Below are positions 15,723 to 64,000 of a stretch of 64,000 nucleotides of DNA, piece by piece. This DNA comes from Prunus persica (taxonomy: Eukaryota; Streptophyta; Magnoliopsida; Rosales; Rosaceae), in contig NC_034009.1 of the NCBI RefSeq assembly GCF_000346465.2, positions 16,222,950-16,286,949 on the forward strand, given 5' to 3'. The position numbers were made by a program, and so were the translations under genes. The stretch's first letter is position 1. Each line of letters starts with the position of its first letter. The notes under the pieces are model-generated. The model was not told the origin of the DNA. It worked only from the letters and a program-made list of their open reading frames with translations, and ran no database searches.

Positions 15723-15906
15723 AAATAATATTACAATTTTATTTTTATTTTTTTTATTTTTTTATTTTTTATTTTAAATAAAATTGGTTTCTTTTTATTG
15801 ATTAAACAATGAAATTGCAATAAAAATAAATTAGAATAAAATTTTGTTATAAAATAAAATAAATGTATTACAAATAAAATAAATGTTTATGATGAAAATA
15901 AATACA

Positions 15907-17744
15907 CTAATCAAATAATGAAGCAAAATCAACCGGGTCGTCGCGAGTATGCGGCTCGGAGGTCTGGGCGTCCACCGGGGCTGTGGTCTGGGCGTCCACC
16001 GGGGCAGTGGTCTGGTGGGCATGCTCGGGGTGGACGGGCTGGGAGGTCGACGCACGAAACTGCGGGATCGGAAAGCCGCTCTCTGCGAGGGACTGTAGAA
16101 TCACCGACATCTGACCCTGAAGCTCGGCCACCTGTGCTGTCAAAGCAGTCACCTGACTGTTTGACTGCACCGATGAACGAGGTCTAGGTTCCCTCCGCCG
16201 GGCATTCCCCATCCCTCGACAATATGTCCCCAGCCTCCTTCGCTCGAGTCTGATCCAACGTCTCCGTCAAGATCTGAAATCCAGCATCCGATGGAGGAGC
16301 CACAGACTCGAGCGGAGTCTCAGGAGGAAGCTGGGAGGCGGACTCCTGAAGAACCAACTGGCTCCTCTCCACCATCGTCGTCTGTTGAACATAACATAAA
16401 ATATAAATTAAAACATGCATATAAATTGAATGCGTAACATAAGAATTTAAATTAAATAATACTTACATGAAGGGACTCGGCCAACTCATTCCCGGGTCGA
16501 ACATAAACGTCACCAAAGACGTCGATCTCTGGGAACTTGGACCCCTCCTAAATTGAACAAGAGAAGAAAAATATTAGTATGAAAAAAATAAATTAATAAA
16601 AATGACATTAAAAATGAAATATAAATTATGTGATTATTACCCGTCGCCGTGCATCCATCCTATACGAAAAGGGACTGGAGCCAGAATGGTGGAGAAGGGT
16701 CTTCTTCTTCCTATTACCCTTATTCACTTGGGCTTTATTCTGTTATACAAAAAATGAAACGTATTAGTTAAAATATAACAAATTAAATAATAATGAAATA
16801 AAAAAAATGAAATAAACATTAATAAGAAATAAGTAATAATTAAACAAATATGATTAAAAAAAATACCATATATTCGGGCGCTTGAAAATGAGCGCAGAGC
16901 CACTCCCAACTATCCTCCCGCCCCTCAAGCTCCTTCGGGCAACCCTCCTGAAGAGCGACTTGCGGATCATCAAAGGCCTGAAAATGATGGTGCAAGTCGC
17001 TCTTCCACTGCTTGTACCTCTCAGCGATGAGTCTGTTGACGTACACCAACGACTCTTCGTCGAGATCCTCCAAGTTATAGTTCGTCTGCAATCAATTAAT
17101 TAAATACGTTAAGTAATAGAAATATACACAATTTTAAAGAAAAATAATGAAAATGTAAGGTACATACCGACAACTGGCCGCGAACCTCCACCTTTATTTC
17201 GTCAGGAATGACCCTCCAAGACTTCCATTGCATCGGGCAATGGGTCCGCACGACGTGGCCAATGTCGTGGGCCAAGGAGCTATGCAACTCCGCCGTGGGT
17301 GCAGCCCGATGGCGCTCGTCGTATCCGATGCTGATACGACTGTTGGTCACCCGGGTGACCTTCGCTGTCTTCAGCTGACGACACGGCCCTCGGGTGTTCT
17401 TCTTCGCTGCAAAGAAATAAGATATTAATGTTAAATAAACAACATTGTCAAATTTAAATATAAAATTAACAATAAAAAATGGTAGTTATACCTGGCTGTG
17501 ATCCCGAGGCACCAGTACCCTCGGTCGATGTCGTCTTGGTGGTGTCGGCAGGCCGGTGCCGCCGCCTAGCACTAGCAGGCTGCGCGACGGATGACGCAGA
17601 TGACGCTGGCGCCTGGGACGCCCCGGGACCAACTAGCACGTGCTCCATCAAAGCTGGAGCTGTGGCAGCAGATGCCGACTGAGCTGGGGGATCCGAACTC
17701 GGTGCAGTCGTCATCGACCTACCACGTCTAATCAAGTCTAACAT
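15907..17744 (-). pseudogene. CACTA-1 second gene (plant Ptta/En/Spm-type, TNPA-like), one frameshift
   Basis: Likely the DNA-binding accessory protein that recognises subterminal motifs. Six minus-strand exons join in phase: 17744-17492, 17406-17168, 17085-16867, 16739-16641, 16547-16467 and 16381-15907. The ATG directly follows an acceptor (GCAG at 17745-17748). Exon 1 is Ala/Ser/Pro-rich. Exons 2-3 carry the family core (R-G-P-C-R-Q-L-K, then P-M-Q-W-K-S-W-R-V-I-P-D-E-I-K). Exon 4 has the N-K-A-Q-V-N-K-G-N-R-K-K-K motif. The last exon has a short coiled coil (V-A-E-L-Q-G-Q-M-S-V-I-L). The frame shifts in a run of four G (plus coordinates 16228-16231), separating the last ~105 codons, so the gene is damaged or the run is misread. 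No Ulp1 domain is present, unlike in CACTA-2. Confidence 0.8.
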
Positions 17745-17747
17745 CTG

Positions 17748-18600
17748 CACATATAATTTTATTAAGAATTTAAACTAATTAATTAAAAGCATAGCATGAC
17801 CTAGGGTTTGGAATTTCGGAGTATCCGGGACTCCGATCAACAATCGGTCGAATCCTAAACGATCCTAGAAACACAAAGGTACAACTACGTGAGTTTGAGT
17901 TCGATCCAACGGTCCGAACATATCAAACCTGGAAATCGCAGAATAGGCGAAATCCGATCAATACTCAAACGGTAACCAAATTCAAATCCGAGCAAACCTA
18001 CGCGCTCGTGACAAACAGGGGATTGCTCTGGGACACAATGCCCCACTGCCACAGCATCCCACGCGCCACCACACGCGCCGGCAGCGCGTGGGTGTCCAAA
18101 GCGATAACATTCGCCGGAAAATTCTAAAAACTAACGGCCAAGGTTCCTACCCTAGGTTGAAAACAGTAATTGGAGCCACTTTTGTTCTCGGACCTACCCC
18201 GAAAAATAGCCGGAAGTGGCCGGATTTGAAATTCCCAAACCGGCCAAAACCTAGGGTTTTAATTCCTATTTCCTATAGCGAAAATTCAACAAATCCTAGC
18301 CAACCATCAGCTAGAGCACAAAAAATAGTCGAGAAATCATACCTCAGGCGTCGGAAATGGTGGCCGGAGGAGAGAGAAATCGCCGGCGATGAATCGGGAA
18401 AAAACCGGCAGGCTCGACGGCGGGCTCGACGGCGAAGGAAGGGGAGGCTACGGCAAGAGCGGCGGTGGCTGAGGTGACGGCGGAGAGAGAGGGCTGAGGT
18501 GACGGCAGAGAGAGAGGGAAACGGAGGAAAAAACCAGAAATGGGGAAGAAGGAGGCATCGCGCCGTTTCTGCAAATTTTTACGACTTTGCGCGACGAAGG
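17748..18600 (-). promoter_or_regulatory. Leader region of the CACTA-1 second gene; homologous to 32870-33700
   Basis: A minus-strand donor (GAG/GTATGATTT at about 18343) suggests a GC-rich untranslated first exon (18344-~18600) spliced to 17747. The stretch 17800-18520 aligns in the same orientation with 32870-33700: shared 'gagtat..gggactcc', 'caaacctggaaatcgcagaata', 'cggtaaccaa', 'cggcagcgcgtgggtgtc' and 'tggtggcc..gagaaatcgcc' landmarks in the same order. One was therefore derived from the other or both from a common transposon. Confidence 0.6.
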
Positions 18601-19570
18601 ACATCATCCGTCGCGCAAAATGGTATTAATGAATCTTGCGCGATGAAATATCCGTCGCGCAAGGTCTCCCAGAACGCCAAATTTTGAATGGGGATTAGGG
18701 TCTGTGACTTTTGCGCGACGAAAAATACTTAGTTCGTCGCGCAAAAGGCTGTCGTTCCGCCAAATTTTTGGGATTTAGGGTTTAGTGGGAGGCTGAAACT
18801 GAAGGGTTTGTGCTTTTGCGCAACGAAGAGAGTAAACGTCGCGCAAGGGTAACCTTGCGCGACGGGAAACATTATATTCGTCGCGCAAAACGCTGGCGTT
18901 CCGCCAAATTTTTGGGATTTAGGGTTTAGCGGGAAATGAAGGGTTTGTGCTTTTGCGCGACGAAGACAGTAAACGTCGCGCAAGGGTAACCTTGCGCGAC
19001 GGAACACATTATATTCGTTGCGCAAAACGCTGTCGTTCCGCCAAATTTTTGGGATTTAGGGTTTAGCTGGAAATGAAGGGTCTGTGGATTTTGCGTGACG
19101 AAGATAGTAAACGTCGCGCAATGGTTCCCATTGCGCGACGGAAAATATTATATTCGTCGCGCAAAACGCTGTCGTTCCGCCAACATTTTGGGGTTTAGGG
19201 TTTAGCGGGACGCAATCTATTTCACTTTCACTTTGCGCGACGCATACCTTGGTTCGTCGCGCGAGTTCAAGATTGTGATTGAAATTTTCACTAAGTGTTC
19301 AAAGGGGATGGAGGTGTGAAAACTGTCGCCCAGATTGCTCGACGAACATAGGACTGTTCCGTCGCGCAATCTATTTCACTTTCACTTTGCGCGACGCATA
19401 CCGTGGTTCGTCGCGCGAGTTCAAGATTTTGATTGAAATTTTCACTAAGTGTTCAAAGGGGATGGAGGTGTGAAAACTGTCGCCCAGATTGCGCGACGAA
19501 CATAGGACTGTTCCGTCGCGCAATCTATTTCACTTTCACTTTGCGCGACGGTTATAGATATGCGTCGCGC
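18587..19570. repeat. CACTA-1 internal motif cluster with two tandem arrays
   Basis: The GCGCGACGAA motif continues here, 3 kb from the end. 18740-19210 is about four copies of a ~137-145-bp unit (with 'cgctgtcgttccgccaaatt' and 'gggatttagggtttag'). 19211-19545 is two full copies and part of a third of a 154-bp unit ('ctatttcactttcactttgc' start). Each unit contains an inverted motif pair. Confidence 0.9.
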
Positions 19571-19616
19571 AAAACCTAGACCCTAAACCCTAAGCCCTAA
19601 ACCCTAAACCCTAAAA
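19571..19616. repeat. Interstitial telomere-like (CCCTAAA)n
   Basis: About five consecutive CCCTAAA / CCCTAAG heptamers directly after the 154-bp array. 'tttagggtttag' also occurs within each ~140-bp unit upstream, so this probably derives from array sequence rather than from a telomere. Confidence 0.85.
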
Positions 19617-20245
19617 TAGTTTCAATGATCCAACCGGCTAACTTATTTTTTGATACTTGGAGATCATATACGCCAAAAATCAAAAAGACCAAACATTCAG
19701 ATATCAGGGAACGGGACTAAATATTTCGACGGTTATAAATGAAAAGTCATGATTTAACGGTTATTTTAACTCCGATTTTGATCATTTTTTACAGCAACAT
19801 TTGTTGACCCTATATGAATACAATGACTGAATTTGATCTTCAATTTCAGATTTTTACACTAGGGGATACCACATAAACGTTAAGTTACATTTTCACAAAT
19901 GTATGAACAAATTTTAGGGTTTTTGGTGAATATATGATTTTGATAGCACACGCAGTCTACGAAACAAGTTTCAGTCATCCAGCCGTCAAACTTGTTTTTT
20001 TAGACTTCGAGATCATAGACAGCAAAAATTGGACAAAAAAAACATTCAGAGATTAAGTAACGGGGTAAAACTTTTCGACGGTTCTAAATAAAGAGTGATG
20101 ATTGAACGGTTATTTTAACTCCGATGTTGATGATTTTTTGCAGCTACAGTCCTACACTTCATATGAATACAATGAACTACTTCGATCGTCAATTTTAAAT
20201 ATATATGTGTGTATATATTATACTATAACGTTACCTAATATATAT
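19617..20245. repeat. CACTA-1 non-coding direct duplication
   Basis: Two ~230-bp segments (19619-19850 and 19969-20195) share the series 'gtttcaatgatccaaccgg', 'gagatcata', 'aacattcagat', 'ttcgacggttataaat', 'gatttaacggttattttaac' and 'tatgaatacaatga'. No gene is seen. Confidence 0.8.
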
Positions 20246-20421
20246 TTGCGCGACGAAGGGCTCATTATCGTCGTGCAAAAATTCCATACGCGACGCATAT
20301 ATATTCGTCGCGGAAACAATGCGCGACGAGGTATATTCGTCGCGCAAACGTTACGCAACACTTATATATGCGTCGCGTATGGTATGTTTGCGCGACGATA
20401 ATGAGCCCTTCGTCGCGCAAG
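20246..20421. repeat. Small GCGCGACGAA cluster beside the B3 fragment
   Basis: About ten motif copies in inverted pairs (for example 'gcgacgaagggctcattatc' near 20250 and its inverse near 20400), forming one larger inverted arrangement. It ends 175 bp before the captured B3 exon. Confidence 0.85.
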
Positions 20422-20596
20422 GATTTGGCGCCATAAATCCTCATTTAATTCAAATTGTGTATGCTTTGTATTTTTTGGAAAGGTTTTGTATTCATCATTT
20501 TTTATGCTTTGTATTTTTTGGAAAGGCTTTGTATTTCTCAATCAAGCTTTTGATTTTGAACACATCTCTCAATCAAGCTTTTGAGTTAATTCAGCC

Positions 20597-20693
20597 ATGG
20601 CTTCTCTTCATGACACTCCAACATCTTCAGCTCCCATACCCCACTTCTTCAAGATCATTCTAGATGACACTTCTAAAAACATCAGAATTGTAA

Positions 20694-20737
<44 letters not shown>

Positions 20738-20856
20738 GCTAAGAATGTTTTCTGATTATTGAAATATTCATTTCTTTTGTTATTTTTATTGAAGCTTTAA
20801 CTTGTTCTGTTCTGCAGAAAATTCCAATGAAGTTTGTGATGAAATATGGAGAATGA
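20597..20856 (+). pseudogene. Captured B3-domain transcription-factor fragment with its intron
   Basis: Exon 1 (20597-20689, 31 codons) reads M-A-S-L-H-D, then P-H-F-F-K-I-I-L-D-D. A GT-AG intron (20690-20817) with a (CT)n tract and a C-rich acceptor (TCTGCAG) follows. Exon 2 (20818-20856) reads K-I-P-M-K-F-V-M-K-Y-G-E, then TGA. This is the N-terminal start of a B3 DNA-binding domain (REM/VRN1-like: H-F-F-K-I then I-P-x-K-F-V). Only ~35 of about 100 domain residues are present. Its retained intron shows capture from genomic DNA. It lies on the strand opposite to the element's own genes. Confidence 0.82.
20697..20734. repeat. (CT)n microsatellite in the B3 intron
   Basis: About 19 CT dinucleotides just after the intron donor. 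Confidence 0.95.
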
Positions 20857-20948
20857 ATACACAACTACATATGGACAACTACATATATTTAAAGATTTGT
20901 ATTACATAAAATGAATACAGTAACATAATAAATTTACAAATAAATTCA

Positions 20949-23900
20949 TTATTCATCATCTGAACTATAATAACTTTCGTTATTGTCGCTATCATCACTC
21001 TCGGTCTCCCAGTCTTCTTCCTCCTCCTCCTCTATAACTGCATCATTGGCGTTGCTAGGGCCCACTGCAACATCGTATCGGGGAAGATCACCGAGGTCAA
21101 TTGTAATTGACTGAATCGGTATTTCGACTGAAGACACTCCTTCTATTTGAAACGGTTCTTGTATAACATTTGTATCTCGAAGTGTTTCCGCATCATTTTC
21201 CATTGAAGATTCTAAACGTTGGTCAGCCACATTGTCGACGTCGTTGTCACTTGGGTCTAGTTCTGGTATATCATACACATTCCTATGATCCATCTTCTGC
21301 ACAACTTTCCACCAGTTCCCGGCTTTAGGGTCATCTAGATACACAATTTGGGACGCCATGTTTGCCAAAATGTACGGGTCGTCATCATACCAAGTTCTGT
21401 TATTGTTCACAGACAGTACTCCATGGTCGATTTTAACACTTCCCGCCCATTTTGGGTTGGTATCGAACCATCGACACTTAAACATGATGACTTGGTATCG
21501 ATCTTTGTAAAGCAATTGCACGACAGTTGTCAGTTTGCCATAGAAATCAATGTCCGTACTTTCGCCTCCACCTGGGACATGGACACCGCTATTTTGCGTA
21601 CACAACTTGTCATCTCGTGCGGCCCCCAAAAATTTGACGCCGTTAACATTACAACCCGAGAACAATTCAGCGCGAATTGGGCCGAACGCCAAGTTATATA
21701 ACTCATCACTGTAAGTGGGGGAATTCGATGATTTCAATTTATTCACCTAATAGTATACAAAACCATTTACATGTTAGTCTGACAAAATTAAATACTACAA
21801 TTTATATTTGTCAATTACAAAACACTTATAACTTACAGAATCCAAAAACCATTGTGGAAATAATTCACGGTGTTTCCGGGCAACCAAATGTGATAGATGT
21901 TCTCGCTTCATCATCTGTTCATGCTCATCTAAGTAGGCCATTATCTCATCACAATTGTTCAGTACGAACCAATGCGCTACCTCCATGTCATTTCTAGAAA
22001 ACGACTCTCCTCGTCCAGGATCTCCAAATGGTCGTGCGCTTTGGGCAAAAACAGAAAGTTTTTCATTTCTCATACCTCCGTCATTATTGCGTTGAGGATG
22101 ATTGAAAACCGTCTCCACATCTTTTAAATACATTCCACAGAAAGTAAGCGACTCATATTGAACCCAAGCCTCTATAATTGATCCTTCGGGCTTTGCCCTG
22201 TTGCGTACACTTTTTTTCAGCTCTCCGAGAAGCCTGCCAAAATAAAACGATATGATACAAATTAGCAAACTGTTGATAATGATGCATACACAAATGATAA
22301 AGATTATATACCTTTCTATTGGATACATCCAGCGATAGTTGACAGGACCAGCAAGCAATGCCTCTTCTGGCAAGTGAACCATCACGTGCATCATACTTGT
22401 AAAGAAAGCTGGAGGAAATATCATCTCAAACTTGCATAGGACTTGGACAATTTCATGGCGCAACTGAAACATGTCTGTCCTTCGCAATGTTTTTGCCGTC
22501 AGTTGGGAAAAAAATCTGGATAACAACATGATTGGCTTCACCACATCTTCCGGCAGTAGGTGTCGAATACCCACAGGAAGTAGGCGTTGCATGAACACAT
22601 GGCAGTCATGGCTCTTAAGTCCAGTAAATTTACCCCCATCGACATTCATGTAACGTGCGATATTAGAAGCATACCCATCGGGAAATTTGACAGACGATAC
22701 AAACTTTAGAAACTCCTTTTTGTCATTCGGTTTCATAGAAAAGAATGCAAGATCCCTTCTAGCTTTATCACTTTCCCTATTCATCCATAAACCCCTTCGT
22801 ATGCCCATTCTTTCCAAATCAAGACGAGCTTTGATCGTGTCCTTCGTCTTCCCCTCGATATCTAGAATCGTGCCCACCAATGTGTCGAATACATTTTTCT
22901 CAACATGCATCACATCTAGATTGTGCCTCAATTTCAGTTTCGACCAATATGGGAGCTCAAAAAACATAGGCTTGTGCGTCCAGTTCAAATGTGTAGAAGG
23001 TCTGGTCCGACTAACTGTTTTCCCGAACGGAGCAAAATCCAAACGGTTCAGCTGTTCCAAGATCTCATCACCGGACCATTCTCTAGGTCTGAGGTGACGC
23101 TCTGTGTTCCCGTCGAACTCTTTATCTTTTTCTCGCCACTCGTGGTCCCATGGCAACCATCTCCGATGACCAAGGTAACAAATTAACTTTTTCCGCGTGC
23201 CAACCAGAAGTTACATCTTCCTTGCATACAGGACATGCCATATAACCCTTTGTGCTCCACCCAGAAACCATTGCATATGCTGGAAAATCATTCACAGTCC
23301 ACATAACTGCTGCTCGCAAAGTGAACATCCTCCCAGTTGATTTATTGTACGTGCGAACACCGTTTATCCATAAATCCTTCAGCTCATCAACCAGAGGCCT
23401 TAAGTACACATCAATTGACCTGCCAGGATCCTCAGTTATCAAAACAGTCATCATCATGTCTGTGGCAGTATGCGTTGACATATACAATCGCTGCAACCTA
23501 GGTTTAAGGGGCAGATAACGCATGACTTTTTGTGGTATCTTAGTCGTTTTATTCTGGGATGTCATTTTGAACCTCAACTCATTGCATATAGGGCATGTAT
23601 CCAACGTTTCATGCTCTTTGTAGAATAACATGCAATTGTTTTTGCAAGCATGAATTTTTTCATAACCCAATCCAAGACCATGCAACACCTTCTGTGCATG
23701 TTTATGGTCTTTCGGCAAACAATTGTCCGTCGGAAGCATTCTCTTGAAAACCCCCAAAAAGTAATCGAAACACAAGTTCGACATATGATACTTTATTTTT
23801 TCGTGCATTAGCTCCACAATGGCAGTGAGAACGGAAAAGCTCTCGCACCCCGGGTATAACTCTTGGTTGGCATTTTTTAACAGTTTTTCATACTGTTCAA

Positions 23901-24300
23901 ACTCCGCACTGTCTATTGATGTAGGCACGTCATCTTCCCCTTCCTGATTGATGTTGGTCGATGCGAATGGAAAAGCATCCTGTATAATACCCATGACTTG
24001 ATCATTAGGATCCACAATAGGTTCAACATTGTCCACTCTTGGGGCATTTGAAGACGAAGCATGGTCTACTTGTTCGCCGTGAAGGTTCCAAATGCTATAT
24101 GTTTCAATCATTCCATTCCTTACTAAATGAAATCCAACATTTTCAATTGTCTCCCACAACGTGTTGTTACACCTCCTACAAGAACAACGGATTCTAGTTG
24201 CACCTGGGTTGTGTCTACGTGCAAACTCAATAAAATCCTCTATTCCATCCAAGTATTCGTCTGCGCATCTATTCGGGTTCTGTATCCACCTTCTGCTCAT
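20949..24300 (-). pseudogene. CACTA-1 transposase (TNPD type), one frameshift
   Basis: The catalytic transposase of En/Spm elements. Minus-strand exons: 24300-22312, 22233-21837 and 21746-20949; introns of 78 and 90 bp with GT-AG ends join in phase. The N terminus has the Transposase-associated zinc-binding region (R-C-S-C-R-R-C near residue 40). Then comes the tnp2 core (R-L-Y-M-S-T-H-T-A, W-T-V-N-D-F-P-A-Y-A, A-C-P-V-C, L-D-V-M-H-V-E-K-N-V, G-L-K-S-H-D-C-H, Y-R-W-M-Y-P-I-E-R). The C terminus has the DUF4218/DUF4216 regions and an acidic tail. The frame shifts at an A run (plus coordinates 23187-23196), splitting it between A-C-P-V-C and the W-L-P-W-D-H motif. The ATG follows an acceptor (TTTCAG). 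Confidence 0.9.
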
Positions 24301-24401
24301 AATTCCTGAAACCACAATCACGACACAACAATCACAACAACTTCATACGAAGTTATAATGTCACCTTATGCCTCCAGTAAGGGCCCTATCCCATTCTGGA
24401 A

Positions 24402-24604
24402 TGCATAGTCCTGTCACGTAACCTACGGCTACATGAGATTAGATTTCGACGTGGATTAATTTCGGCAGCATCTCGACACAGTTCTTGAAGTGGGCATAGG
24501 TATAAATACCTACGTACCACTCGAAGAACGTACCGAGATGACACCGAAATCTCCACAATCGAAACCTAATCCTGTAGCCGAAGATTATGTGACAACACTA
24601 TGCA
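24402..24604. repeat. Long imperfect palindrome in the transposase leader
   Basis: Arms of about 100 bp meet at GGTATAAATACC (24499-24510). The left 'tgcatagtcctgtcacgtaa' pairs with the right '..gtgacaacactatgca', and the middle 'gattagatttcg' and 'ttcggcagcatctcg' pair with their inverses. It lies in the probable 5'-untranslated intron (donor near 24985, acceptor just before 24306), so a transcript would contain a long hairpin. It might also be an old inserted MITE. Confidence 0.85.
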
Positions 24605-25101
24605 TTACCAAACTGTCCAAATAATGGGACAATTCAAGAATTAATTGGACCGCAGTCATGCATTACGCATCCATGCACGAAATCCAACTAATCTCGAACG
24701 GGAAACTACGTGTTACTAAACATAAAAATAAAAGTACGAAGTTAATTTCAATTAACTTCGTACATCACAACACATTGTGCTATGTCACGCACAATTTCAC
24801 AACATTATACATATATAACTTCACAAAAAAATTACAAACATAACAAACAAACTTTTACAATAACATACCTTCTCAATTGTTCTCCACCAATCACCAATCA
24901 CAAATATCCCTAATGATAACAAAATTAATAGCGTTACTACGAATTTACATTAATACATTTAAACTAACGACAAAAAATACATACCCAATGAACGTACTGA
25001 ATTCACAGCAGAACAACGGCAGGGAGAGTGAGAGAGAGGCAGAATGCAATTTCTGCATTCTGCCTCTGCAATGGCAGATACTAATATGAAGAAGAAGGAC
25101 T

Positions 25102-25790
25102 TTGCGCGACGAACACCCACAATCCGTCGCGCAAAATGCCGTCGCGAAAACCCACTTTTCAGTCGCACAAAATAACATTTCCGTCGCGCAATTACCTGTC
25201 GACATCTGCTTTTTTGCGCGACGAATAACATTATTCGTCGCACAAAATTTCGTCGCACAAGGTTTAAATTACGTCGCGCAAATTATTTATTTCGTCGCGC
25301 AAGGCATTACACTTTACGCGACGAAAATAATTCCGTCGCGCAAAAAAAGTTTTATCCACCCTGCATTTTGCCGCCAAAAATAAGTGTCCCTCGTTTTCTT
25401 ACGCGACGGTACATGTTTTCGTCGCGCTAAGTTGTCTTTTGCGACGAAAACTTTCGTCGCGCAAAGTTTTTTACCGCAAAAAAAATTAGACAATTTTCTG
25501 TCCATCTTTACGCGACGAATTTTTTGGATTGTCGCGCAATATTGTCATGCGCGACGATCATTATCGTCGCGCAAGATTCTGGCGCCAAAAAAAAAAACCG
25601 GGGTTTTTTCCCCGACCTTTGCGCGACGAAATTAGTGTTGGTCGCGCATAGATTATTTGCGCGACGAAACCGTTTCGTCGCGCTAGTGTTCTGTTGTTTG
25701 CGCTACGGTATTTTTTTTTCGTCGTAATAGTGAAGTTTGCGCGACGAAAACATGTTCGTCGCGCAAACTTCCGTCGCGCAAATAGTAAAT
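25102..25790. repeat. CACTA-1 right subterminal repeat cluster
   Basis: GCGCGACGAA / TTCGTCGCGC motifs at high density up to the terminal inverted repeat, mirroring 15174-15722. Interspersed A/T runs and 'ggcgccaaaa'-type spacers separate the pairs. Short ORFs here encode only the repeat. Confidence 0.92.
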
Positions 25791-25800
25791 CGTAGTAGTG

Positions 25801-52170: not shown

Positions 52171-52203
52171 ATTAGGAACTTCCACTACTACAAAAAGTGA
52201 AAA

Positions 52204-53800
52204 AGACGACCAGAAAACAACGACGGTCTAAGTGAAAACCGTCGTGGTTTTTAAAAAGACGACGGTTCTAAAAACACCGTCGTGTAATACAACCTTAGAC
52301 AACTAAAAAATGGAGATTCAAATGGCTGTTCAAAAACAACGACGTACCTAATTAAACAACCGACGTCTATTTGAAACAGATTTTCACAGTGTAAAATCAA
52401 TGCCAACAAAGAACGGCAGAAGTTATGAATCGACCGACGTAGAAAGTAAAGACGACGATTTCAATAAAAACCGCCGTGTTTACTCATAAAATAACACGAC
52501 GAGGTTTTCGTATAAGACGCCGTATAATTACAAACAAATCCACGGCTTTAAAATACAAAATATTGTCGTATTAAATTAATGTACAACGACGGAAAATATA
52601 AATATATCGACGTCATTCTCGTATAGTTCTACGACGTTATCTTTAAATCGTACAATAAAATTTAACGTCGTATTTATTCATTTTATACATCGTACCTTTA
52701 ATTTAAACCGTCGTCTTAATAAGAATTTTTGTTAACAATTTTTTTCTTTGATTTTCTTATCCTACGTCGGTAGATCTACTTAATGACAAGAATTGAAATA
52801 ACCACGACGGTTTATATAGAAAACCGCCGACATAATCAGATTTGTCTGAGATCCCAAGGGTTACGAAATCTTACCAGATGGAACTCTGTTCCACATCATA
52901 ATCTTAACAGATGATACAGATTTGCAATCAGAGACACAATTTTTTGGAAGTTGATGATGTGTGTGCGTTTGTGTATCTACAAATATTATACCTAACGTCG
53001 TTGCAAATTTGCAATCAGAGAGACAATTTTCAACGACGGTTATATTATACCTAACGACGTTTAAAAAACAAATCAACGTCGCTCAACAAATATATTACGT
53101 CGTCTTAGTCTTACTTAAGACGACGAAAAACGACGACAGTAATACAAAAACAGTCGTTGTTTTTATATTCTTATTTTATTTAAGTCTGTCATCCAAAAAA
53201 GAAACTTTACATATTCCAGAACATTAATTTCCTTCATTTTAAATTTCCTCCGGAAAAAAAACTCTATTTATAACGCACTGTAATTGAAAAATAAACTGAA
53301 AGGTCACGGGAAAAAAATTTCTATTCATAAATTAAAAATTCAAATCCACGTCGGTTATATTAAACCTAACGACGTTAAATGAAAAGATTCCACGTCGCAA
53401 AACAAATATTGCGTCGTGTTAGTTAAAAACGACGGCATAACAAAAAACCGTCGTTGTTTCAAACTGAATTAATTTAAAATTTCTTCAGGAAAGCAAAATC
53501 TATTTATAATTTCCTCGGGTTAGTAATATTGCGTCGTGTTAGTTTACAAATTCTAGAACATTAATTTCCCTCATTTTAAATTTCATCGGGAAAGAAAAAT
53601 CTATTTATCACGCTTTGTAATTGAAAACTAAAACTGAAAGAATTCGGGAAAAAAAACTCTATTTATAATTTAAAAATAAAATCCACGTCGGTTGTAGTAC
53701 ACTTAACGACGTTTAACAAAATAATCTACGTCGGTAATTATAAATCTACCGCCATCTTACCTTAATATAGACGACGAGAAAAGACGACGGTAGAACAGAA
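52204..53800. repeat. CACTA-2 left subterminal region, ACGACGG/CCGTCGT motif array
   Basis: Dense motifs, many as inverted pairs (for example gacggtctaagtgaaaaccgtc, written here without its flanks, near 52223). 53020-53170 and 53340-53460 are related blocks, and 53210-53300 is repeated at about 53550-53670. About 1.6 kb, long for a subterminal region. No gene. Confidence 0.9.
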
Positions 53801-53878
53801 AACCGCCGTTGTTTCAGTTTCTTTAACAGTTTGGTCCTTTATCTTTCTGCAGGACTTGTATAGTTCAAAGCATTGACA

Positions 53879-54310
53879 ATGTCTTCATCATATCTCCCAG
53901 CAACTACTGATTCGATTGCTCATGCTTTAGAGGCTATCTGAAGCCATTTCTATTCTTTATCGCATTCTTGAAACCCATCTTCTTCTTCTGAAGCTCTACG
54001 GATAAAGGAAGAGGCTATCACAAATCTGACGGATCTTCTTAGCCAAGAAAATCAAGCAGAGGATCAGGCACATCTGATCTTCAGATTTCCCTGAGAAGCG
54101 AACTTTCCTTCGACAGCGAGTGGAGGCCAGGCTTGCATCTTTTTTGATGAAAAGCAAGGAGTATTCAGAAGCACTAAGTGTCCTATCAGGCTTGATCAAG
54201 GAAGTGAGAAGGCTAGTTGACAAGCTTCTTCTTGTGGACTTATATTTGATGCGAGTAAGCTCAATTTCTCTTTGAGAAAGACATCCAAATTATTGTCTTT
54301 GAGACGTGAG
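53879..54310 (+). pseudogene. RPN6: Captured fragment of 26S proteasome lid subunit RPN6 (PSMD11)
   Basis: The ATG at 53879 opens M-S-S-S-Y-L-P-A-T-T-D-S-I-A-H-A-L-E-A. After a stop and frame changes come S-I-L-Y-R-I-L-E, and then K-R-T-F-L-R-Q-R-V-E-A-R-L-A-S, K-E-Y-S-E-A-L and S-G-L-I-K-E-V-R-R-L. These are the N-terminal segments, in order, of the plant proteasome regulatory particle subunit RPN6. The middle (about 60 residues) is missing and at least three frame breaks are present. There is no intron in the piece. It is a non-functional transduplicated copy, in the same orientation as the element's genes, within the motif-rich zone. It lacks the motif itself. Confidence 0.88.
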
Positions 54311-54399
54311 AGACAGTGTCTCTGAGAGAGGAAGAACTTGGAACCCTAAATGTAAACCGAAAATGAATGAAAGTGACAAATTTATAGAATAAATTTTTA

Positions 54400-54780
54400 A
54401 AACCAACGGCGGTCCTTACAAAAAAACCGCCGTTTAAATTGTAAAATCAACGTCGGTATGACCGACGTATATTACAGAAATCCACGTCGGTACATTAATA
54501 AAAACGACGTGTTAAATAATCTACCATGACGCGAGTTATTAGTTATGTACTTTAATTTTTGAGTTTACTACGACGGTACCTACAACACTACTGTCGTATT
54601 TATTTACCACGTCTGAAGTTAAATGTACCGTCGTATTTTGTAATTTATACGTCGTAGTTATATGTAACCGCCGTATTATTTTTTTGAAATGGTTTTATAT
54701 GTAAGCAACTTTTCGTCTACCTGACTTACACATGCGCTGTTTCCAAACCCGATTAAAAATTTCAATCTCCCAGAGAAAAC
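54400..54780. repeat. CACTA-2 motif cluster upstream of the second gene
   Basis: CCGTCG / ACGTCG motifs up to the probable transcription start region of the next gene. No coding signal. Confidence 0.8.
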
Positions 54781-54898: not shown

Positions 54899-55791
54899 GT
54901 AAGCTTTCATTTTCACTATTTTGGTTGCTATTTTGCATGCTCATACGTTTTTTGTTTGAAAAATCTTTTTACCTTTTTTCTGGCCAAAATCATTTTACTT
55001 CTTTCCAAGTTCGATAAAATATACAGACAAAGAGGGAAAGTTTCCAACTTTGAAGACAACTACCTCAACTAAATAAGACGACGGTAGCTTCTTATTTACG
55101 TGGTTAAATATGTAGACCACGACGGTTCGTCAGTCGTTCTAGCGTCGTCTGAAAATTGACAAAGTTGTTTATAAAATTATAGTCTTTTTTTTATTTGCTT
55201 GTTTAATTGCAGGTTTGATTTCTCTGAACAATGATTTTTGTTTTTCCCTAATTTGATAAAATATAAAGAAAAAGAAAGTAGGGTTGGTATCTAATATAGA
55301 CAACAGTATCTTATTGTTTTACGTCGTGTGAATGTTAATACCACGACGTCATATTAAAATACCGTCGTCTATATAAGATTCCAAAACTTTCTTTCTTGGC
55401 CTTGTATTTTATGAAATTAGAAAACAAAAACCGTGGTTCAGAAAAATCAAATCTGCAATCAAACATTCACAGAGAAAGAATGAAGGGTTTTGGATCCTTA
55501 TATAGACGACAGTATATTACTATTGACGTCGTGTGAACATCAATACCACGACGTTATATAAATATTTCGTCGTTTATAGTTAATTATCACGTCGTTTATA
55601 AGTTATTATTACGTCTTATTTTATATTATTTCGTCGTTCTTTAATTACCTTGGTTTTAAACATTTATTACGTCTGAGATTATTTCATTGCGTCGTTTAAA
55701 ATCATATCATACGTCGTATTTTATTAATAACCGTCGTTTGTGTTCTTAATCTTTTCCTGAAATATTTTCACTTGCAGTTTTGTCTGTAAAA

Positions 55792-58700
55792 ATGGTTTCT
55801 CACCAAGACCAAAGTAAGGACTCTGGCTCCAAGAAAAATGGAGGTAAGGAGCTTGGAATGGTAACTCCTGAAGAGAAGTCTTCGAAGAAGATGAAGTTTG
55901 CTTCATCATCTGCTGAGACAGAACCAACCAGCACGACAACAATCTTTGATGATTCAAAGTCTGGTCGAGGTATGAGCACAATGCCTCGTGTTGTGAAGAG
56001 AAAACTTCAGAAACTCAGGCCAATTGTTGAGTACAATAAAAGGGGGAAAGGAATTGGCCAAGCACATAGTGAGATGCAGTCCTACATTGGTGTGTTGGCA
56101 CGCTCCAGAGTTCCACTTGTGGACATGAAATGGGCTCAAATCCCCAAGGATATAAAGGAGCAGATTTGGGAAGCAGTTGACATTGCTTTTGTGGTAGGTC
56201 AAGGGGGCAAGAACTTTGTGTTAGCTTCTGCTGCCAAGAAATGGAAGGATTTCAAGTCTACACTAACGAGGCATTATATCCTTCCATACACCAATGACAG
56301 GGAGAGATTAAGCCAACCCCCTGAAACATATAAATTCATAGAGAAAGCACAATGGGATGCCTTTGTAGCTTCAAGGTTATCCAAAGATTTTGAGTCTGTA
56401 CATTCTCAACATGCACAGATTAGGGAGAAACTTGAGTACAATCATCGATTGTCTCGAAAAGGATATGCTGGTTTGGAGGATCAATTGGAGGAAACCATGC
56501 CTGGGGTAGAAATTGATCGATCTACCTTATGGAAGAGAGCTAGACAGGACAAACATGGTAACATCCCGGATCCAAAGGTGGCAGAGAAAGCAAAATTAAT
56601 TGTAAGCCTACGCACTCTGTTTTAAATTTTTATTAAACTGTGAATAATTCTTATTACGTCTTATGATATATTTTGCGTCGTGTGAATGATATTACCACGT
56701 CTAAATTTTTAAAAAAATGTCGTTAAAGGTCTAAATCAGGAATCACTACTCTGTTTTCTGTAATTATAGCATAAGATGTCGGTGGTTCATTTTCGCGTCG
56801 TTTGTATTAAATTACTACGTCGAAATGTTTTAAACAAGGTCGTTAAAGGTGTGAATATTGAATCATCCCTCTGTTATCTGTAAATAAAGCATAAGACGTC
56901 GGTGGTTTATTCATTTCGTCATTTTAAAAAACTAACCACGTCGGTATGACTACCGTCGTGATAAATTATAATAACGTCAATTTATATGTTACTGCGTCGT
57001 CTGAAATTAATAATACGTCGTTTGTATATAAATAACCGTCGTGTGTTTTTTGTTCTTACTTTTTTATATATCTTTGTTTTAGGATGAATTGCAAAAACAA
57101 GTCTCGGAAGGCAAAGTCACTGTATCTGGCAGCAATGATGTGCTGACCATGGCTTTGGGCCCCGAGCATCCAGGCAGAGTGAGAGGGGTAGGTGCTGGGA
57201 TTTCCCCAAGGCAATATTTCAATTTACCCAAACCACAGAGGATGAGCTTTGACGACCGTTTAAAGGACAGTTTAAGAGTTCTCCTTCAAGAAGAGAATAA
57301 AAAGATGGAGGCTAAGGCAAGGGAGGAGGCTTTAAGGATGGAGGCTAGAACCAAGCAATTGGTAGAGGCTGAGAGGGAGCATTTCCTGAGTCAGCTTTCC
57401 CAATTAATTTCCAATTTTGATCCAAGCATGCTTAAACCAAGAATTAGCCAAAGTCCCAAAAATCCAATGTCTGACAAAGCAAGCTGCTCTGGAGGTGATG
57501 TGAGATCCCTACATTTTGAGGATGATACTGCCAAAAATGGGAAACATCAGGAAGAAAAGGTAACATATCTGAACTTTGAATTCTCTGTTTTTTTAAAAAC
57601 TATTAGACGTCGTTATTTTTAATAAAACCGTCGTTTGAAATACATACCACGATGTTTTAAAAATAAACCGTCGTTTGTATTTCAATACCACGTCGTATTT
57701 AGTTTACTTGTTTTACACGCCATTAAACGTCGTTATTTTTAAAACTTTGTGGTTTTCAGACGACGGGGTTAGTCATTCCCGACGTAATAGATGAAGAGAA
57801 AAAAGATGAAAAACAAGATGAAAAGGAGAAAGAAGATGAAGAAAAGCATGACGACCAGGTATGTTCACATAACTTTGCCTGTTTTATTTGTTTTTCAAAA
57901 TTTCAGACGTCGATATTTTTCTTTAAACCGTCGTTTGTTTACAACTTAGACGGCGGAATTTTTTTTAAGACGTAATAAATTATTCACCACGACGGTGTTT
58001 TTGCCGTCGTTTAAATTCTTTTCAGACGACGTTTTGTTCCTTAAACCGTCGTTTTTATTGAATTACCACGTCTTTTTTTTTATTTCTTTAAACAGGTTTT
58101 TGAAGTTGTTGATTATTCAAATATGGAGGCGCCATCTTCTTTAAAATCCCTTTGTCGTTATGTGGAAACGACACTAGTGCCTCAGGATAAGACCCTGAAC
58201 TTTACAATTGATAAGGAGGTGTTTGGTCTAGAGCGCGATACCTTCCTCCTGCCTGAAGATATTACACAATTTGCAGGCATGGAAGAAATAGGAGCTACGG
58301 TCATTGCTGTATATATGAGGTTTGTCATTCTAAAATAACCACGTCGTTAGTATGTACCGTCGTTATTGCGTCGTCTTAACTAACTAACCACGTCGTTAGT
58401 ATGTACCGTCGTGATAAATATATTATAACGTCGTTGTCTATTTCAGTACGTCGTGTGAAATTTTATAATACGTCGTTTTGTTATACATAACCGTCGTGTG
58501 TTTTTTTGTGCTGACTTGTTTATATTATTTTATATATTTAGGTACTTACACGATGTTTTGAAACAAGCCAATATGTGCAGCATGGTAGGCTTTATCGACC
58601 CTGCTACAGTTAGTGCCAACTCTGGCACAATAGCTGACAGATCACGACTGGCAGCAGCTCGACTTCAGAGGACTGATGGTGAACAGATTTTCATGATGCC

Positions 58701-59457
58701 TTACAATCCAGGGTTAGTCTTCTTAACAGGATTTTGTTTTTATGATTTTCAATAAATGACAGCGTATAAACTAACCACGTCGGTGTTTTATTTTATTGAG
58801 TCGTTTGAAAATACTAACCACGTCGGTAGTTATTTATCGTCGTGATAAATATATAATGTCGTCGATTGCTACTTTATTTCGTCGTGTGAAATATTATAAT
58901 ACGTCGTTTATGTAAATAACCGTCGTTTTTATATTAATTTTGTGCAGCCGTCATTGGATCTTGTTGATTGTGAGACCAAAGAGGGAAACCGTCTATTTTC
59001 TGGATCCTCTGCCAGGAAATCGTGTGGTCGATGAAGAGGCCAAAAACATCGTGAACAGTGCTATAAAAATTTATAATTCTCACATAGCCAGATCAGGCCG
59101 TAAGGCAGTAATTTGGAAAACTCTGTCAGGCACACCAAAGCAACCCAGCAGTGTCGAATGCGGGTATTATGTGATGCGCTTCATGAGGGACATCATCATG
59201 GATCCTTCCTTGGCGTTTGAGAAGAAGGTAAGAAGAAATTACCTTCATACATTTTACGTCGTTTTTTGTATTATCAACGACGGTCATGTAAAATTACCGT
59301 CGTTGAATAGATATACTACGTCGGTTATGAAAAATATCGTCGTCTGTCATTGTTTATGCAGTATGCCAAGGGAAAACAGGAAGCGCCATACCCCCAAGAA
59401 GCAATTGATGAAGTCCGGAATGAATGGGCAGAGTTTGTTTGCCCTCACCTGGAATAG
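55792..59457 (+). CDS. CACTA-2 second gene: Ptta/En/Spm-type domain fused to a Ulp1 (C48) cysteine protease, 718 residues, intact
   Basis: Seven coding exons with GT-AG borders join without a stop: 55792-56601, 57083-57559, 57760-57858, 58096-58319, 58542-58712, 58948-59227 and 59362-59457 (2157 nt). Residues ~65-190 resemble the plant transposase Ptta/En/Spm region (V-D-M-K-W-A-Q-I-P-K-D-I-K). A charged coiled coil follows (~315-345), then an acidic linker encoded by exon 3. The C terminus is a Ulp1-like peptidase: His596 in R-H-W, Asp613 in F-L-D-P, Gln659 and Cys665 (Q-x5-C-G), so the catalytic set looks complete. Ulp1 proteases remove SUMO from proteins. For a transposon protein the target is unknown; SUMO-dependent silencing or its own partner protein are possibilities. 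The TTG four codons upstream is not needed as a start. Confidence 0.88.
56602..57082 (+). repeat. Intron 1 of the Ulp1-domain gene, built from CGTCG-motif units
   Basis: Holds a ~125-bp tandem duplication (56695-56815 and 56816-56940, both with 'gtcgttaaaggt' and 'agcataaga.gtcggtggtt'). The last ~150 bp ('actaaccacgtcgg' to 'aaccgtcgtgtg') are homologous to the ends of introns 4 and 5. Confidence 0.85.
57560..58095 (+). repeat. Introns 2 and 3 with exon 3 between them, CGTCG-motif rich
   Basis: Intron 2 is 57560-57759 and intron 3 is 57859-58095; each contains 6-9 motifs. Exon 3 begins ACGACGGGG and then CCGACGTAATA, matching the 'gacggcgg....aagacgtaata' stretch of intron 3. This suggests that the start of exon 3 was recruited from repeat sequence. 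Confidence 0.8.
58320..58541 (+). repeat. Intron 4, CGTCG-motif unit
   Basis: Contains two near-identical 'ccacgtcgttagtatgtacc' blocks and the same ~130-bp tail as introns 1 and 5. Confidence 0.85.
58713..58947 (+). repeat. Intron 5, CGTCG-motif unit
   Basis: The ordered landmarks 'actaaccacgtcggtag', 'tcgtcgtgataaatata', 'tcgtcgtgtgaaat', 'ataatacgtcgttt' and 'aaataaccgtcgt' match introns 1 and 4. Confidence 0.85.
59228..59361 (+). repeat. Intron 6, short, with CGTCG motifs
   Basis: 134 bp with six motifs, including the inverted pair 'aacgacggtcatgtaaaatt' / 'accgtcgtt'. Confidence 0.8.
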
Positions 59458-60620: not shown

Positions 60621-61436
60621 AAAAATTTTCGCGCACCCTAAATTTTTTAGATTTGCTCTTATTCTTATACTTCTAATCCTGAACCCTAAAATTTTCAGAT
60701 TTCGCGCAACATAACATTTCGCTCTCTCACTTCTGCTATAATTAAAAGTTGCACTCTCCAGGCTCCGTCGAATCTGTGAGCTCGTCCAACCTGTAAGTAC
60801 AAACCCTATCTTCCCCTTGTAAATTCATTGAATGATATTAGGTTGTTTTGTTAAAGGGTTTTAGGTATATGCTTTGCGATCTGTTAATAATGTGCTTATA
60901 GGTATGGGTTCATGGATTTTCTGTTTAATGGGTTCATGGATTACATTATCTGTTATGTTGAATTGGGAATGGATTTAATTTTGTCGGATCTTTTAATCAC
61001 CCTATGTTATGTTGAATTGGGAATGGATTTATTGTTTTCATGCTTGGTTTCATGTATATGTTGGTTTCTTGCTTGGTTTCATATATATGTTGTGTTCTTA
61101 ATGGGTTTTGGGTTCTTGAAAATAAACTGAGACACGACGCCTTTTTAGGCATACGACGACGATTACACGACGGTTTATGAAAAAACGGTCGTTGTATTAC
61201 TTATACACGACGGTTTTCAACGACGGTTTTTTCATAAACCGTCGTTTGTATTACTTATATTAGACGACGTCTGTTGAAAATCCGTCGTCTATATATGCCA
61301 AATACGTCTGTTTTTATTTGAAACCCGTCGTCTCTGTTGTGTATTACTTGCTATTAGATCTTTGTATAATCTGCTATAGTGATGGTTATTGCCTGTATTT
61401 TCACTTTATTATAGATAATAGGTTATAGTGTCGGAG
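60621..61436 (+). promoter_or_regulatory. Leader of the CACTA-2 transposase gene
   Basis: A probable untranslated exon ends at a donor (AACCT/GTAAGT, 60792/60793). The leader intron has a tandem 'atgttgaattgggaatggat' repeat (60950-61030) and a tight motif cluster (61130-61345, with long inverted pairs such as acgacggttttttcataaac-type arms). It ends near TTATAG before 61437. Confidence 0.6.
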
Positions 61437-64000
61437 ATGGATAAGTCATGGATGCACTCGGATAGAAGATCGAAGGCATATGAGTTTGGGGTGGAAGCAT
61501 TTTTGAACTTTGCTGTAGAAAATCTTCTAACTACAACACATATCCGTTGTCCATGTGTTAAATGTGTTAATTTGAAGTTGTTTGGGGTTGGAATTATAAG
61601 GGATCACTTATACTTTAATGGAATTGACCAAAGCTATAAGAATTGGACATTTCACGGAGAACCTTGGGAAGCAGCTACTAATGCTAGTAGAAATGTTGAA
61701 GAAGATGATGGCCATAGTAGGTACAGTTTTGTGTCTGAAGAAATTGATATGGATGATAATGATTTTGGTGATTTTGGTTCCGATCCGTATGAGTTTGCCA
61801 ATGTGATTGGGGATGGAGATCAACCAGTGTACCCTGGTTGTAGAAAGTACACGAAGTTATCGGCATTAGTGAAGTTGTATAATTTGAAGGCAAAACATGG
61901 GATGAGTGATGTCTGTTTTACAGAATTATTGATACTTCAAGGCGATTTGCTTCCAGAAGGAAATACAATACCAACCTCTATGTATGAGGCTAAAAAGACT
62001 TTGTGTGCATTGGGGCTGAGTTATGAGAAAATGCACGCATGCCCCAATGATTGCATCTTGTATAGGAAGGAGTATGAGGATTCAACTAATTGTCCTACTT
62101 GTGGTATCTCAAGGTGGAAGGAAGGCAAAGATTCAATCTTGAAAGAGGGTGTGCCAGCGAAGGTGGTGTGGTATTTTCCTCCAATTCCAAGGTTTAAAAG
62201 GATGTTTCAATCACATGAGACAGCTAAGAGTTTGACTTGGCATGCTGCTAGAAAATCAATTGACGGTCAGATGTCTCATCCATTCCCCGTCTTGGAAACT
62301 TCTTGATGATAAATGGCCTGAGTTTGGTAATGAGCCGAGAAACTTGAGATTGGCTCTTTCATCTGATGGATTCAATCCCCACAGTTCTCTAAGTAGCAGA
62401 TATAGTTGTTGGCCGGTTATCTTAGTTACATATAATCTCCCTCCATGGCTGTGCATGAAACGAAAGTTCATGATGTTAACCTTATTGATTTCCGGTCCTA
62501 AACAACCCGAAAATGATATAGACGTCTACTTGGAGCCTTTGATTGATGATTTAAAATCTTTGTGGGATGGGATTAGAGGAGTGTATGATGCACATAATGG
62601 AGAATACTTTACACTCAGAGCTGCATTAATGTGAACAATTAATGATTTCCCGCCCTATGGAAACTTATCTGGTTGTGTTGTTAAAGGATATAAAGCTTGT
62701 CCAATATGCGGCGATGATACACCTAGTCACAGGTTGAAAAATGGCCACAAAATTTGTTACATTGGGCATAGAAAATGGTTACCAATCAATCATCCATATA
62801 GGAGGCAACGTGCAGCTTTTAATGAGAAACCTGAATATGGCATACCTCCCGAGCCATTAACCGGAGAAGAAGTGCTGCATATGGTTGAAAATGGTGACAG
62901 AGTTTGTTGGAAGAAGAAATCAATATTCTTTGATCTCGAGTATTGGAAATACCTTCCTGTGAGGCATGCCCTAGATGTTATGCACATTGAGAAGAATGTT
63001 TGCGATAGTATCATTGGTACATTGCTGGAGATCCCTGGAAAAAATAAAGATGGGATTGCTGCTCGATTAGATTTATTGAACATGGGGGTCAAAACTGATT
63101 TGCAACCCGAGTATGGAGAAAGACGTACTCGTTTGCCTCCTGGGCCTTGGAATTTGTCAAGAGCAGAGAAGAGAGAGGTTTGCAATTCTTTCTATGGTAT
63201 GAAGGTCCCTGAAGGTTATTCTTCAAATATTAAAAATCTTGTATCTTTACAAGATTCAAGACTTCTTGGCCTTAAATCACATGATTGTCATACCTTAATG
63301 CAACAATTGCTCCCTGTGGCAATTCGTTCTGTTTTGAAGAAGCCTGCAAGGTATGCAATAACTTGTTTGTGCTTATTCTTCAATGCTATAAGTGCAAAGA
63401 CTGTTGATGTTTTCAAGCTAGATAAGTTGGAAGAAGATGTAGTAGTTACTCTGTGTTTGCTTGATAAGTACTTTCCCCATTCATTCTTTGATATCATGGT
63501 TCATCTAGTAGTACATCTTGTCAGAGAAGTTTGTCTATGTGGGCCAGTATATTTTAGGTGGATGTATCCGTTTGAAAGATATATGAAAGTGCTGAAGGGG
63601 TATGTTCAGAATCGTAGTCGTCCCGAAGGTTGCATTGCTGAGCGGTATATAGCTGAAGAAGCGGTAGAGTTTTGTACTCAGCATTTATCTGATGTTAGTA
63701 CAGTTGGAGTGCCTTCAAGCCAAAAGATGGGACTTTCAAAGCTATTATCAGGTTGCACAGTGAGCGTAGTTGATCAGGACTTGTTGAATCAAGCACATCT
63801 ATATGTCTTGGAGAATACGGAGGAAGTCCTACCTTATATCGAGTACGTATGAGTTTTATTCTTTAAGTTTCCATTTTAAATTATTTCTTATGTTTATCTT
63901 CTATATTTGGGACCGTAATGCTTGAATTTTTCGTGTCATGTAGGCAACATATGATCCACATCAAGACTGCTTATCCAAAATTTAGAAAGAGAACAAAGTG
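61437..64000 (+). pseudogene. CACTA-2 transposase (TNPD type), frameshift plus nonsense, runs off the window
   Basis: The ATG at 61437 starts M-D-K-S-W-M. The Transposase-associated region has C-P-C-V-K-C near residue 40. The tnp2 core follows (M-H-A-C-P-N-D-C, F-P-P-I-P-R-F-K-R-M-F, L-D-V-M-H-I-E-K-N-V, G-L-K-S-H-D-C-H, F-R-W-M-Y-P-F-E-R-Y). Two lesions are seen: a frame change at about 62270-62290 and a TGA at 62632-62634 where the family has Trp (W-T-I-N-D-F-P). A GT-AG intron lies at 63843-63943 and the next exon continues past 64000. Orientation is the same as the Ulp1-domain gene, 2 kb upstream. Not functional as it stands. Confidence 0.9.

Follow-up and report, generated by a model that had tools for sequence, protein, structure and literature searches.

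A stretch of 64,000 nucleotides from peach (Prunus persica; NCBI RefSeq assembly GCF_000346465.2, contig NC_034009.1, positions 16,222,950 to 16,286,949 of the forward strand), hereafter called the window, contains a CACTA transposon, CACTA-2, which spans from position 52183 to beyond the right edge of the window. The element carries an accessory gene (55792-59457) and a transposase gene (from 61437). An earlier examination of the letters alone, the sequence-only reading, had noticed that the accessory-gene introns are packed with a short motif, and had proposed either intron gain by an introner-like process or selection that spreads protein-binding sites through every non-coding part of the element. 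In the present study, we examined these introns in the window and in other copies of the element. The intron-array observation is real and is stronger than first reported. Selected intronic binding arrays appear to be the best reading of the sequences, and the data do not support recent intron gain as the principal explanation.

Organization of the element

CACTA-2 has a tnp2-type transposase (Transposase_21) with associated domains, as in the CACTA (En/Spm) superfamily. The domains Transpos_assoc (PF13963), Transposase_21 (PF02992), and DUF4218 (PF13960) lie in the window, and DUF4216 (PF13952) lies rightward in L077, the DNA just right of the window. The transposase gene is broken in the window copy (the frame is closed at 62303, and a stop occurs at 62632-62634); the accessory gene is nonetheless open. 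Subterminal repeats are clustered in both orientations: we counted 42 motif cores, defined here as CGTCG or CGACG, in the left 2.5 kb, and 25 cores to the right of the transposase gene, over 1,356 bp. A run of N, which begins at about base 2137 of L077 and reaches its end, covers the right end of CACTA-2, and neither an inverted partner of the left terminus nor a 3-bp target site duplication was seen there.

All seven introns of the accessory gene (one in the leader and six in the coding region) start with GT and end with AG, and the joined exons form an uninterrupted coding sequence (CDS) of 718 amino acids (aa). This intron-exon structure, which agrees with the coordinates of the sequence-only reading, is predicted from the open reading frame, from the splice signals, and from Prunus records with comparable gene models. 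The features are as follows.

52183-54700, no strand: left end of the CACTA element, with the terminus CACTACTACAAAAA at 52183 and the terminal region; 42 cores (19 CGTCG, 23 CGACG); right limit approximate
54899-55777, plus strand: leader intron of the accessory gene; GT-AG; 14 cores (10 sense, 4 antisense); the preceding leader exon is inferred
55792-56601, plus strand: exon 1 of the accessory gene, with the start codon
56602-57082, plus strand: intron 1; 9 cores; tandem duplication of about 120 bp at 56670-56911; 56913-57082 matches intron 4
57083-57559, plus strand: exon 2
57560-57759, plus strand: intron 2; 5 cores; 57590-57637 matches intron 3 near the donor
57760-57858, plus strand: exon 3; the first 30 bp or so are array-like and translated (TTGLVIPDVI)
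57859-58095, plus strand: intron 3; 6 cores
58096-58319, plus strand: exon 4
58320-58541, plus strand: intron 4; 9 cores; 58365-58541 matches intron 1 as far as the acceptor
58542-58712, plus strand: exon 5
58713-58947, plus strand: intron 5; 7 cores; 58777-58926 matches intron 1, and 58767-58945 matches intron 4
58948-59227, plus strand: exon 6, with the main part of the predicted Ulp1-type catalytic domain
59228-59361, plus strand: intron 6; 5 cores
59362-59457, plus strand: exon 7 and the stop codon
59458-60795, no strand: intergenic region; 14 cores in both orientations; limits approximate
60796-61430, plus strand: intron that probably belongs to the leader of the transposase gene; 10 cores; borders judged by eye
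61437-64000, plus strand: transposase gene, broken in this copy; its portion within the window is free of cores

Enrichment, spacing, and orientation of the motif

The seven introns contain 55 cores in 2,388 bp, and the CDS of 2,157 bp contains two, which both lie where exon 3 begins. In dinucleotide-preserving shuffles of the introns, the mean was 6.93 cores (SD 2.53, maximum 15), and none of the 1000 shuffles reached 55; in the same treatment of the exons, the mean was 0.49 and two cores were reached in 87 of 1000 shuffles. The earlier claim that the introns are packed with the motif and the exons are free of it, save for the start of exon 3, was thus borne out. The observed/expected ratio of CpG was 1.8-3.0 in the introns versus 0.40 in the CDS. 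Outside CACTA-2 and a second CACTA element described below, the window has 16 cores in 41,530 bp. The motif is concentrated in the introns and in the intergenic and terminal regions and is nearly absent from the exons, the exceptions being the two cores in exon 3 and a transposase intron without cores.

The cores are spaced with a pitch of about 21 bp. Among the adjacent intron spacings of up to 65 bp, 28 of 44 were 19-22 bp; random placement gave 7.6%, and 0 of 5000 trials reached the observed value. Core pairs at 41-43 bp were also frequent, and the 21-bp spacing recurs at the left terminus. The ratio of CGTCG to CGACG was 38:3 in the coding introns, 10:4 in the leader intron, and 19:23 in the left terminus. 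Introns 1, 4, and 5 are related, so their sites are not independent; when the three were counted once (as intron 4), the ratio was 22:3 (p = 1.6e-4). In the coding introns, the one-way orientation (sense CGTCGT, T-rich) is probably a consequence of what the splicing of plant pre-mRNA tolerates. With regard to RNA hairpins as the cause of the orientation bias, in silico inversion of every second unit made four of five introns fold more stably and one less stably. By folding energy, introns (z from -4.0 to 0.2) were not distinguishable from termini (z from -3.7 to 0.4).

Sequences shared among introns and with the termini

Local alignments showed that introns 1, 4, and 5 share one block, as the sequence-only reading had noticed, although the extent that it gave, about 130 bp up to near the acceptor, was an underestimate. 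The alignments covered 180 columns at 81% identity (introns 1 and 4), 152 columns at 81% (introns 1 and 5), and 189 columns at 78% (introns 4 and 5), with z values of 18, 19, and 11, respectively, against 200 shuffles in which the motif cores were held in place. The match between introns 1 and 4 extends through the last base of both, the acceptor included. Among the seven introns, 11 of 21 pairs scored above the maximum of their 200 shuffles; intron 6 did so with none.

We also compared the introns with the 5' terminus, the intergenic DNA, the transposase leader, and the 3' terminus. Although 15 of the 28 comparisons (better of two strands) exceeded the maximum of 40 motif-preserving shuffles, their scores were 33-46, versus 148-168 among introns 1, 4, and 5. 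The possibility that the introns are long block copies of the terminal arrays was rejected on account of this weak and short similarity. Introns and termini have the core and the pitch in common, and perhaps some flanking preference, and no long blocks. The earlier statement that the introns are made of the transposon's own repeat motif therefore holds for the core and the pitch of about 21 bp but not for longer stretches.

The identity of 78-81% among introns 1, 4, and 5 is far below that between the subfamilies of the element described in the next section, whose spacers differ by 4-8%; the copying therefore predates the subfamilies. It is possible that the three introns came from one ancient unit, or that old introns were overwritten by one.

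Copies of the element and the history of intron 2

Three subfamilies were distinguished. In a search with exon 1, 40 of 772 candidates were scored, all of them 99-100% identical to the window; 30 were taken as subfamily A, one of which is the window itself. In a search with the C48 domain, 150 of 973 candidates were scored; 30 were taken as subfamily B and are 89-96% identical in the matched exons. Subfamily C (L070-L072) is intermediate between A and B. At exon fourfold sites, the window and the B copy L076 differ at 32 of 239. Two open frames of 645 and 652 aa, at C6:20632597 and C1:10431373, were considered as intronless relatives and rejected, because both copies do contain introns, as subfamily B does.

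Among the distinct copies with both exon ends matched in the DNA piece taken, GT-AG was kept in 34 of 35 for intron 1, 24 of 24 for intron 2, 3 of 3 for intron 3, 36 of 36 for intron 4, 33 of 36 for intron 5, and 36 of 36 for intron 6. The positions of the introns checked agree among the three subfamilies, with the exception of intron 2, which is missing in B. The arrays differ in length among copies: about 120 bp of intron 1 are missing in L017 and L019, 42 bp of intron 5 are missing in L071, and intron 3 is longer in B. In L072, intron 4 is 405 bp long, owing to a tandem duplication of about 190 bp that included, besides the array, the donor and the final bases of exon 4.

In the B copies L047, L075, and L076, exon 2 continues into exon 3 without intron 2 and without the two initial cores of exon 3, and the length of L047 at this site is common to 25 of the 30 B copies. 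Along with intron 2, B lacks about 57551-57559 and 57760-57789. No target-site duplication was noticed at the intron 2 site. Almond protein models have the A-type junction (TTVLVIP), with residues similar to the translation of window positions 57760-57789. A model from Prunus brigantina (P0004) reads through the start of intron 2 (VTYLNFEFS, the first 27 bases translated), and several apricot models break at the intron 2 position. In the phylogenetic tree, from which sequences with more than 35% gaps were to be dropped and none was, P0004 lies outside A+B; the support was 0.60 for the A+B node and 0.997 for the next deeper node. Since P0004 reads through the intron start yet falls outside A+B, and the apricot models break there too, a recent gain of intron 2 in the lineage of the window is disfavoured, and it is more likely that intron 2 was lost in B by an imprecise deletion than that it was gained in A, though the deciding node is weak (support 0.60).

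Core changes within and between subfamilies

For changes within subfamilies, we used the leader intron and introns 1-3 of 29 distinct A copies (L026, which is 7.9% different, was left out) and introns 4-6 of 30 B copies. Within A, cores differed from the majority in 91 of 5,523 cells (1.6%) versus 381 of 44,178 (0.9%) for spacers, and 75 of the 89 changed cells at core CpG positions were C>T or G>A. Within B, the values were 32 of 2,690 (1.2%) for cores versus 69 of 15,755 (0.4%) for spacers. Counted as distinct mutations in A and B together, there were 97 for 290 core sites versus 262 for 2,133 spacer sites, so that cores changed 2.7 times faster per site.

For changes between subfamilies, majority sequences were used where several copies were at hand; subfamily C was the single copy L070, introns 4-6 of A came from the window alone, and intron 3 of B came from the 25 of 30 copies with a common length. 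The core positions were defined by the third lineage, and coding introns 1 and 3-6 were compared. Between A and C, with sites defined by B, changes were found at 1 of 194 core sites versus 38 of 1064 spacer sites (p = 0.022); between A and B, with sites defined by C, at 4 of 195 versus 83 of 1063 (p = 0.002); and between C and B, with sites defined by A, at 3 of 194 versus 86 of 1064 (p = 0.0004). Core change between subfamilies was thus about 4-7 times slower than spacer change. The A-C comparison is the least biased, because A and C are closest (spacers differ by 3-4% versus 8%) and the path joining them has no branch in common with B. In the leader intron, the same three comparisons gave 0/65, 0/55, and 0/55 for cores versus 9/614, 48/624, and 56/624 for spacers, the last two including poorly aligned B stretches; with the leader added, the A-C result was 1/259 versus 47/1678 (p = 0.016). 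The odds ratios of the within-versus-between contrast were 14, 7.7, and 10.6 in the coding introns (p = 3e-4, 1e-6, and 1e-7) and 12-17 with the leader.

The simplest reading of this contrast is that dead copies lose cores through CpG decay and that the founders of the lineages kept them. The contrast itself is observed; from it we infer that purifying selection maintains the cores in the lineages that keep transposing.

The accessory protein

In a Pfam scan, the accessory protein matched Transposase_24, followed by Peptidase_C48 (Ulp1-type, PF02902), above the cut-off. Its protein relatives numbered 548; the best 120 were all, as far as named, from Prunus, and 32 of these were chosen by hand. 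Transposase_24 was found in 32 of the 32 and Peptidase_C48 in 29. In an alignment of a profile of the 32 relatives with human SENP1, which reached E = 0.002, four residues that we take to be catalytic (His, Asp, Gln, and Cys) were in register. Judged by this homology, the second domain is a SENP/Ulp1 (C48) cysteine protease domain.

Other features of the window

The second CACTA element, CACTA-1, lies at about 15157-25798 with its genes on the minus strand, as read by eye. Its terminal and intergenic arrays consist of another motif, GCGCGACGAA (also TTTGCGCGACGAA/TTCGTCGCGCAAA), with the same CGTCG core. The second gene of CACTA-1 gave no Pfam match above the cut-off, so it offers no test of whether the intron positions are the same.

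Elsewhere in the window, a CGACCC-rich short tandem repeat occurs in two copies about 1.6 kb apart (9863-10024 and 11466-11627), and a duplicated segment occurs at two places about 5.6 kb from each other (2004-2180 and 7569-7720), each time with one and the same set of three short tandem repeats.

Discussion

Similar distributions of a motif are known from Mutator-like elements of Arabidopsis (here and below, statements on published systems refer to the portions of the cited texts available to us). VANC21 binds YAGTATTAY motifs in the introns, intergenic regions, and terminal regions of VANDAL21 and causes methylation loss (PMC5735166). In VANDAL21/Hiun with VANC21, and with VANC6, the motif occurs in introns, intergenic regions, and termini, as in peach CACTA-2, and VANC binding is found there and much less in exons (PMC5735166, PMC10398659). 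The short motif of VANC21 forms tandem repeats (PMC5735166), the arrays of the VANDAL elements diverge fast, and the accessory protein is encoded by the element (PMC5735166, PMC10398659); according to a review, some VANC genes (KIU) carry a Ulp1 domain (PMC13317346). The peach element differs in being CACTA rather than Mutator, in having Transposase_24 rather than DUF1985 and another motif, and in being known here from sequence alone. Among CACTA elements, Spm/En of maize and Tgm of soybean resemble CACTA-2 in that short repeats, direct and inverted, cluster close to their ends (PMC2613891, PMC10398659); their repeats are subterminal, whereas those of CACTA-2 also fill the accessory-gene introns. 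Spm TnpA activates Spm with demethylation (PMC10398659). CACTA elements of Chenopodium, grapevine, and other plants have Transposase_24 and Peptidase_C48, arranged as here, next to Transposase_21, DUF4218, and DUF4216 (PMC8978399); what their introns contain is not described there. Searches of an open-access collection, in which most subscription papers are absent, brought up no title or abstract on motif arrays in the introns of a CACTA gene.

That the cores are regularly spaced, constrained, and almost excluded from exons suggests DNA-binding sites. We estimate a probability of roughly 0.55 that an older gene had its introns converted into a platform to which a protein encoded by the element binds, the most likely purpose being anti-silencing, as with VANDAL/VANC. 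The accessory-gene introns of this high-copy element would then have been turned into arrays of a short site with the core CGTCG(T), through local tandem duplication and copying between introns; the arrays, the pitch, the shared blocks, and growth in some copies are what we observed. A duplication across an exon-intron junction, of the type found in L072, is a possible route for multiplying arrays and donors. The pitch of about 21 bp corresponds to roughly two turns of B-DNA. Purifying selection would keep the sites in the transposing lineages despite their being CpG mutation hotspots, and the sites may act, at the DNA level, as targets of a protein from the element itself; the simplest candidate is the Transposase_24 and Ulp1-type product of this very gene. 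Sites distributed across introns, termini, and intergenic DNA could let such a protein cover much of the element and prevent its silencing, as VANC does in VANDAL. The more specific proposal, that CACTA independently evolved a VANC/KIU-like, sequence-specific anti-silencing system in which the Transposase_24 and Ulp1-type protein binds CGTCG arrays spread at two-helical-turn pitch over most of the element's non-coding DNA, those in the introns of its own gene included, and the introns are selected for their DNA and not their RNA, is tentative and may well prove wrong. Of the two explanations offered by the sequence-only reading, selection that keeps sites in the non-coding parts is the one favoured by the reversed mutation pattern within and between subfamilies, the pitch of about 21 bp, and the orientation bias.

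Several observations weigh against selected binding arrays. The transposase coding intron (85 bp, L077:50-134) has no cores, which contradicts the earlier claim that the motif is in every non-coding part of the element; about two would be expected, so the result is weak. Four introns of the CACTA-1 second gene (387 bp, placed by eye; a fifth was left out of the count) contain none, versus 8.9 expected at the density of the accessory gene. The least biased rate test, A-C, gives p = 0.022 (0.016 with the leader), and a version with single copies, in which intron 3 of B was taken from L075 and the other B introns from L076, is weaker: 5/189 versus 43/1067 for A-C (p = 0.54), 9/195 versus 90/1061 for A-B (p = 0.08), and 4/174 versus 88/1082 for C-B (p = 0.004). 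The mutations within subfamilies and the differences between them also stem from partly different introns. Subfamily B is abundant though it has neither intron 2 nor its sites, so not every intron is essential. As a source of the pitch, tandem duplication of a 21- or 42-bp unit could suffice on its own. As for the protein, a single-sequence search against solved structures gave no match, and DUF1985, the VANC domain, was absent in the Pfam scan of the window protein and its 32 relatives. With a Ulp1-type domain yet no DUF1985, the protein may work like the VANC/KIU family without being a member of it.

The sites might instead be selected for transposition or autoregulation, the protein binding the end arrays in complex assembly or promoter control and the intron sites extending or titrating this binding, in the manner of Spm TnpA. 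The terminal regions do have the same core in both orientations and with the same pitch, like CACTA subterminal repeats (PMC2613891), and the leader intron lies close to the presumed promoter. Co-resident CACTA-1, however, has its own motif at the termini and between the genes and none in the four introns examined. To our knowledge, the known CACTA systems have no need of sites deep in introns 4-6 for the pairing of ends. On balance this explanation seems unlikely. We regard it as quite improbable that a motif-bearing unit with its own acceptor was inserted repeatedly and created introns 1, 4, and 5, and perhaps others, a form of the introner-like gain proposed by the sequence-only reading. 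Introners resemble the peach gene in having sequence common to several introns, and the 150-190 bp shared by introns 1, 4, and 5, up to the acceptor between introns 1 and 4, the 11 of 21 intron pairs above shuffles, the 15 of 28 comparisons that revealed a weak likeness to terminal and intergenic arrays, and the array-like start of exon 3 would all fit. But the terminal arrays have no long block in common with the introns, the shared blocks are older than the subfamilies, the intron positions are the same in the subfamilies bar one probable loss, and a target-site duplication was not noticed at intron 2; the peach case is old and confined, as far as we looked, to one transposon gene. A survey, as far as its available text goes, did not find introners in land plants (PMC9860276).

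Neutral turnover, in which old introns were filled by a functionless, satellite-like repeat through slippage and unequal exchange, would account for the changes in array length by duplication and deletion (intron 4 of L072, intron 1 of L017 and L019, intron 5 of L071). It does not agree with cores that change more slowly than spacers between lineages and faster within them, with the one-way orientation, or with exons nearly free of cores, and its probability is very low. We would give the slightest chance of all to a motif acting in RNA, with intronic CGUCG repeats that bind an RNA-binding protein or tune splicing: the sense orientation in the coding introns (38:3) is as expected, but the left terminus has the same core at a similar pitch in both orientations, and folding energies do not tell introns from termini.

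If selected binding arrays are the correct reading, a second, unrelated transposon superfamily maintains arrays of evenly spaced protein-binding sites in its non-coding parts, of which introns are one. The comparison of mutation within young copies with divergence between subfamilies suggests that selection preserves the intronic sites in the face of strong CpG decay, and such a comparison is applicable to any high-copy element. The reading would make it testable why transposon genes keep introns, and the Ulp1-type domains of plant transposons may accompany motif-array systems.

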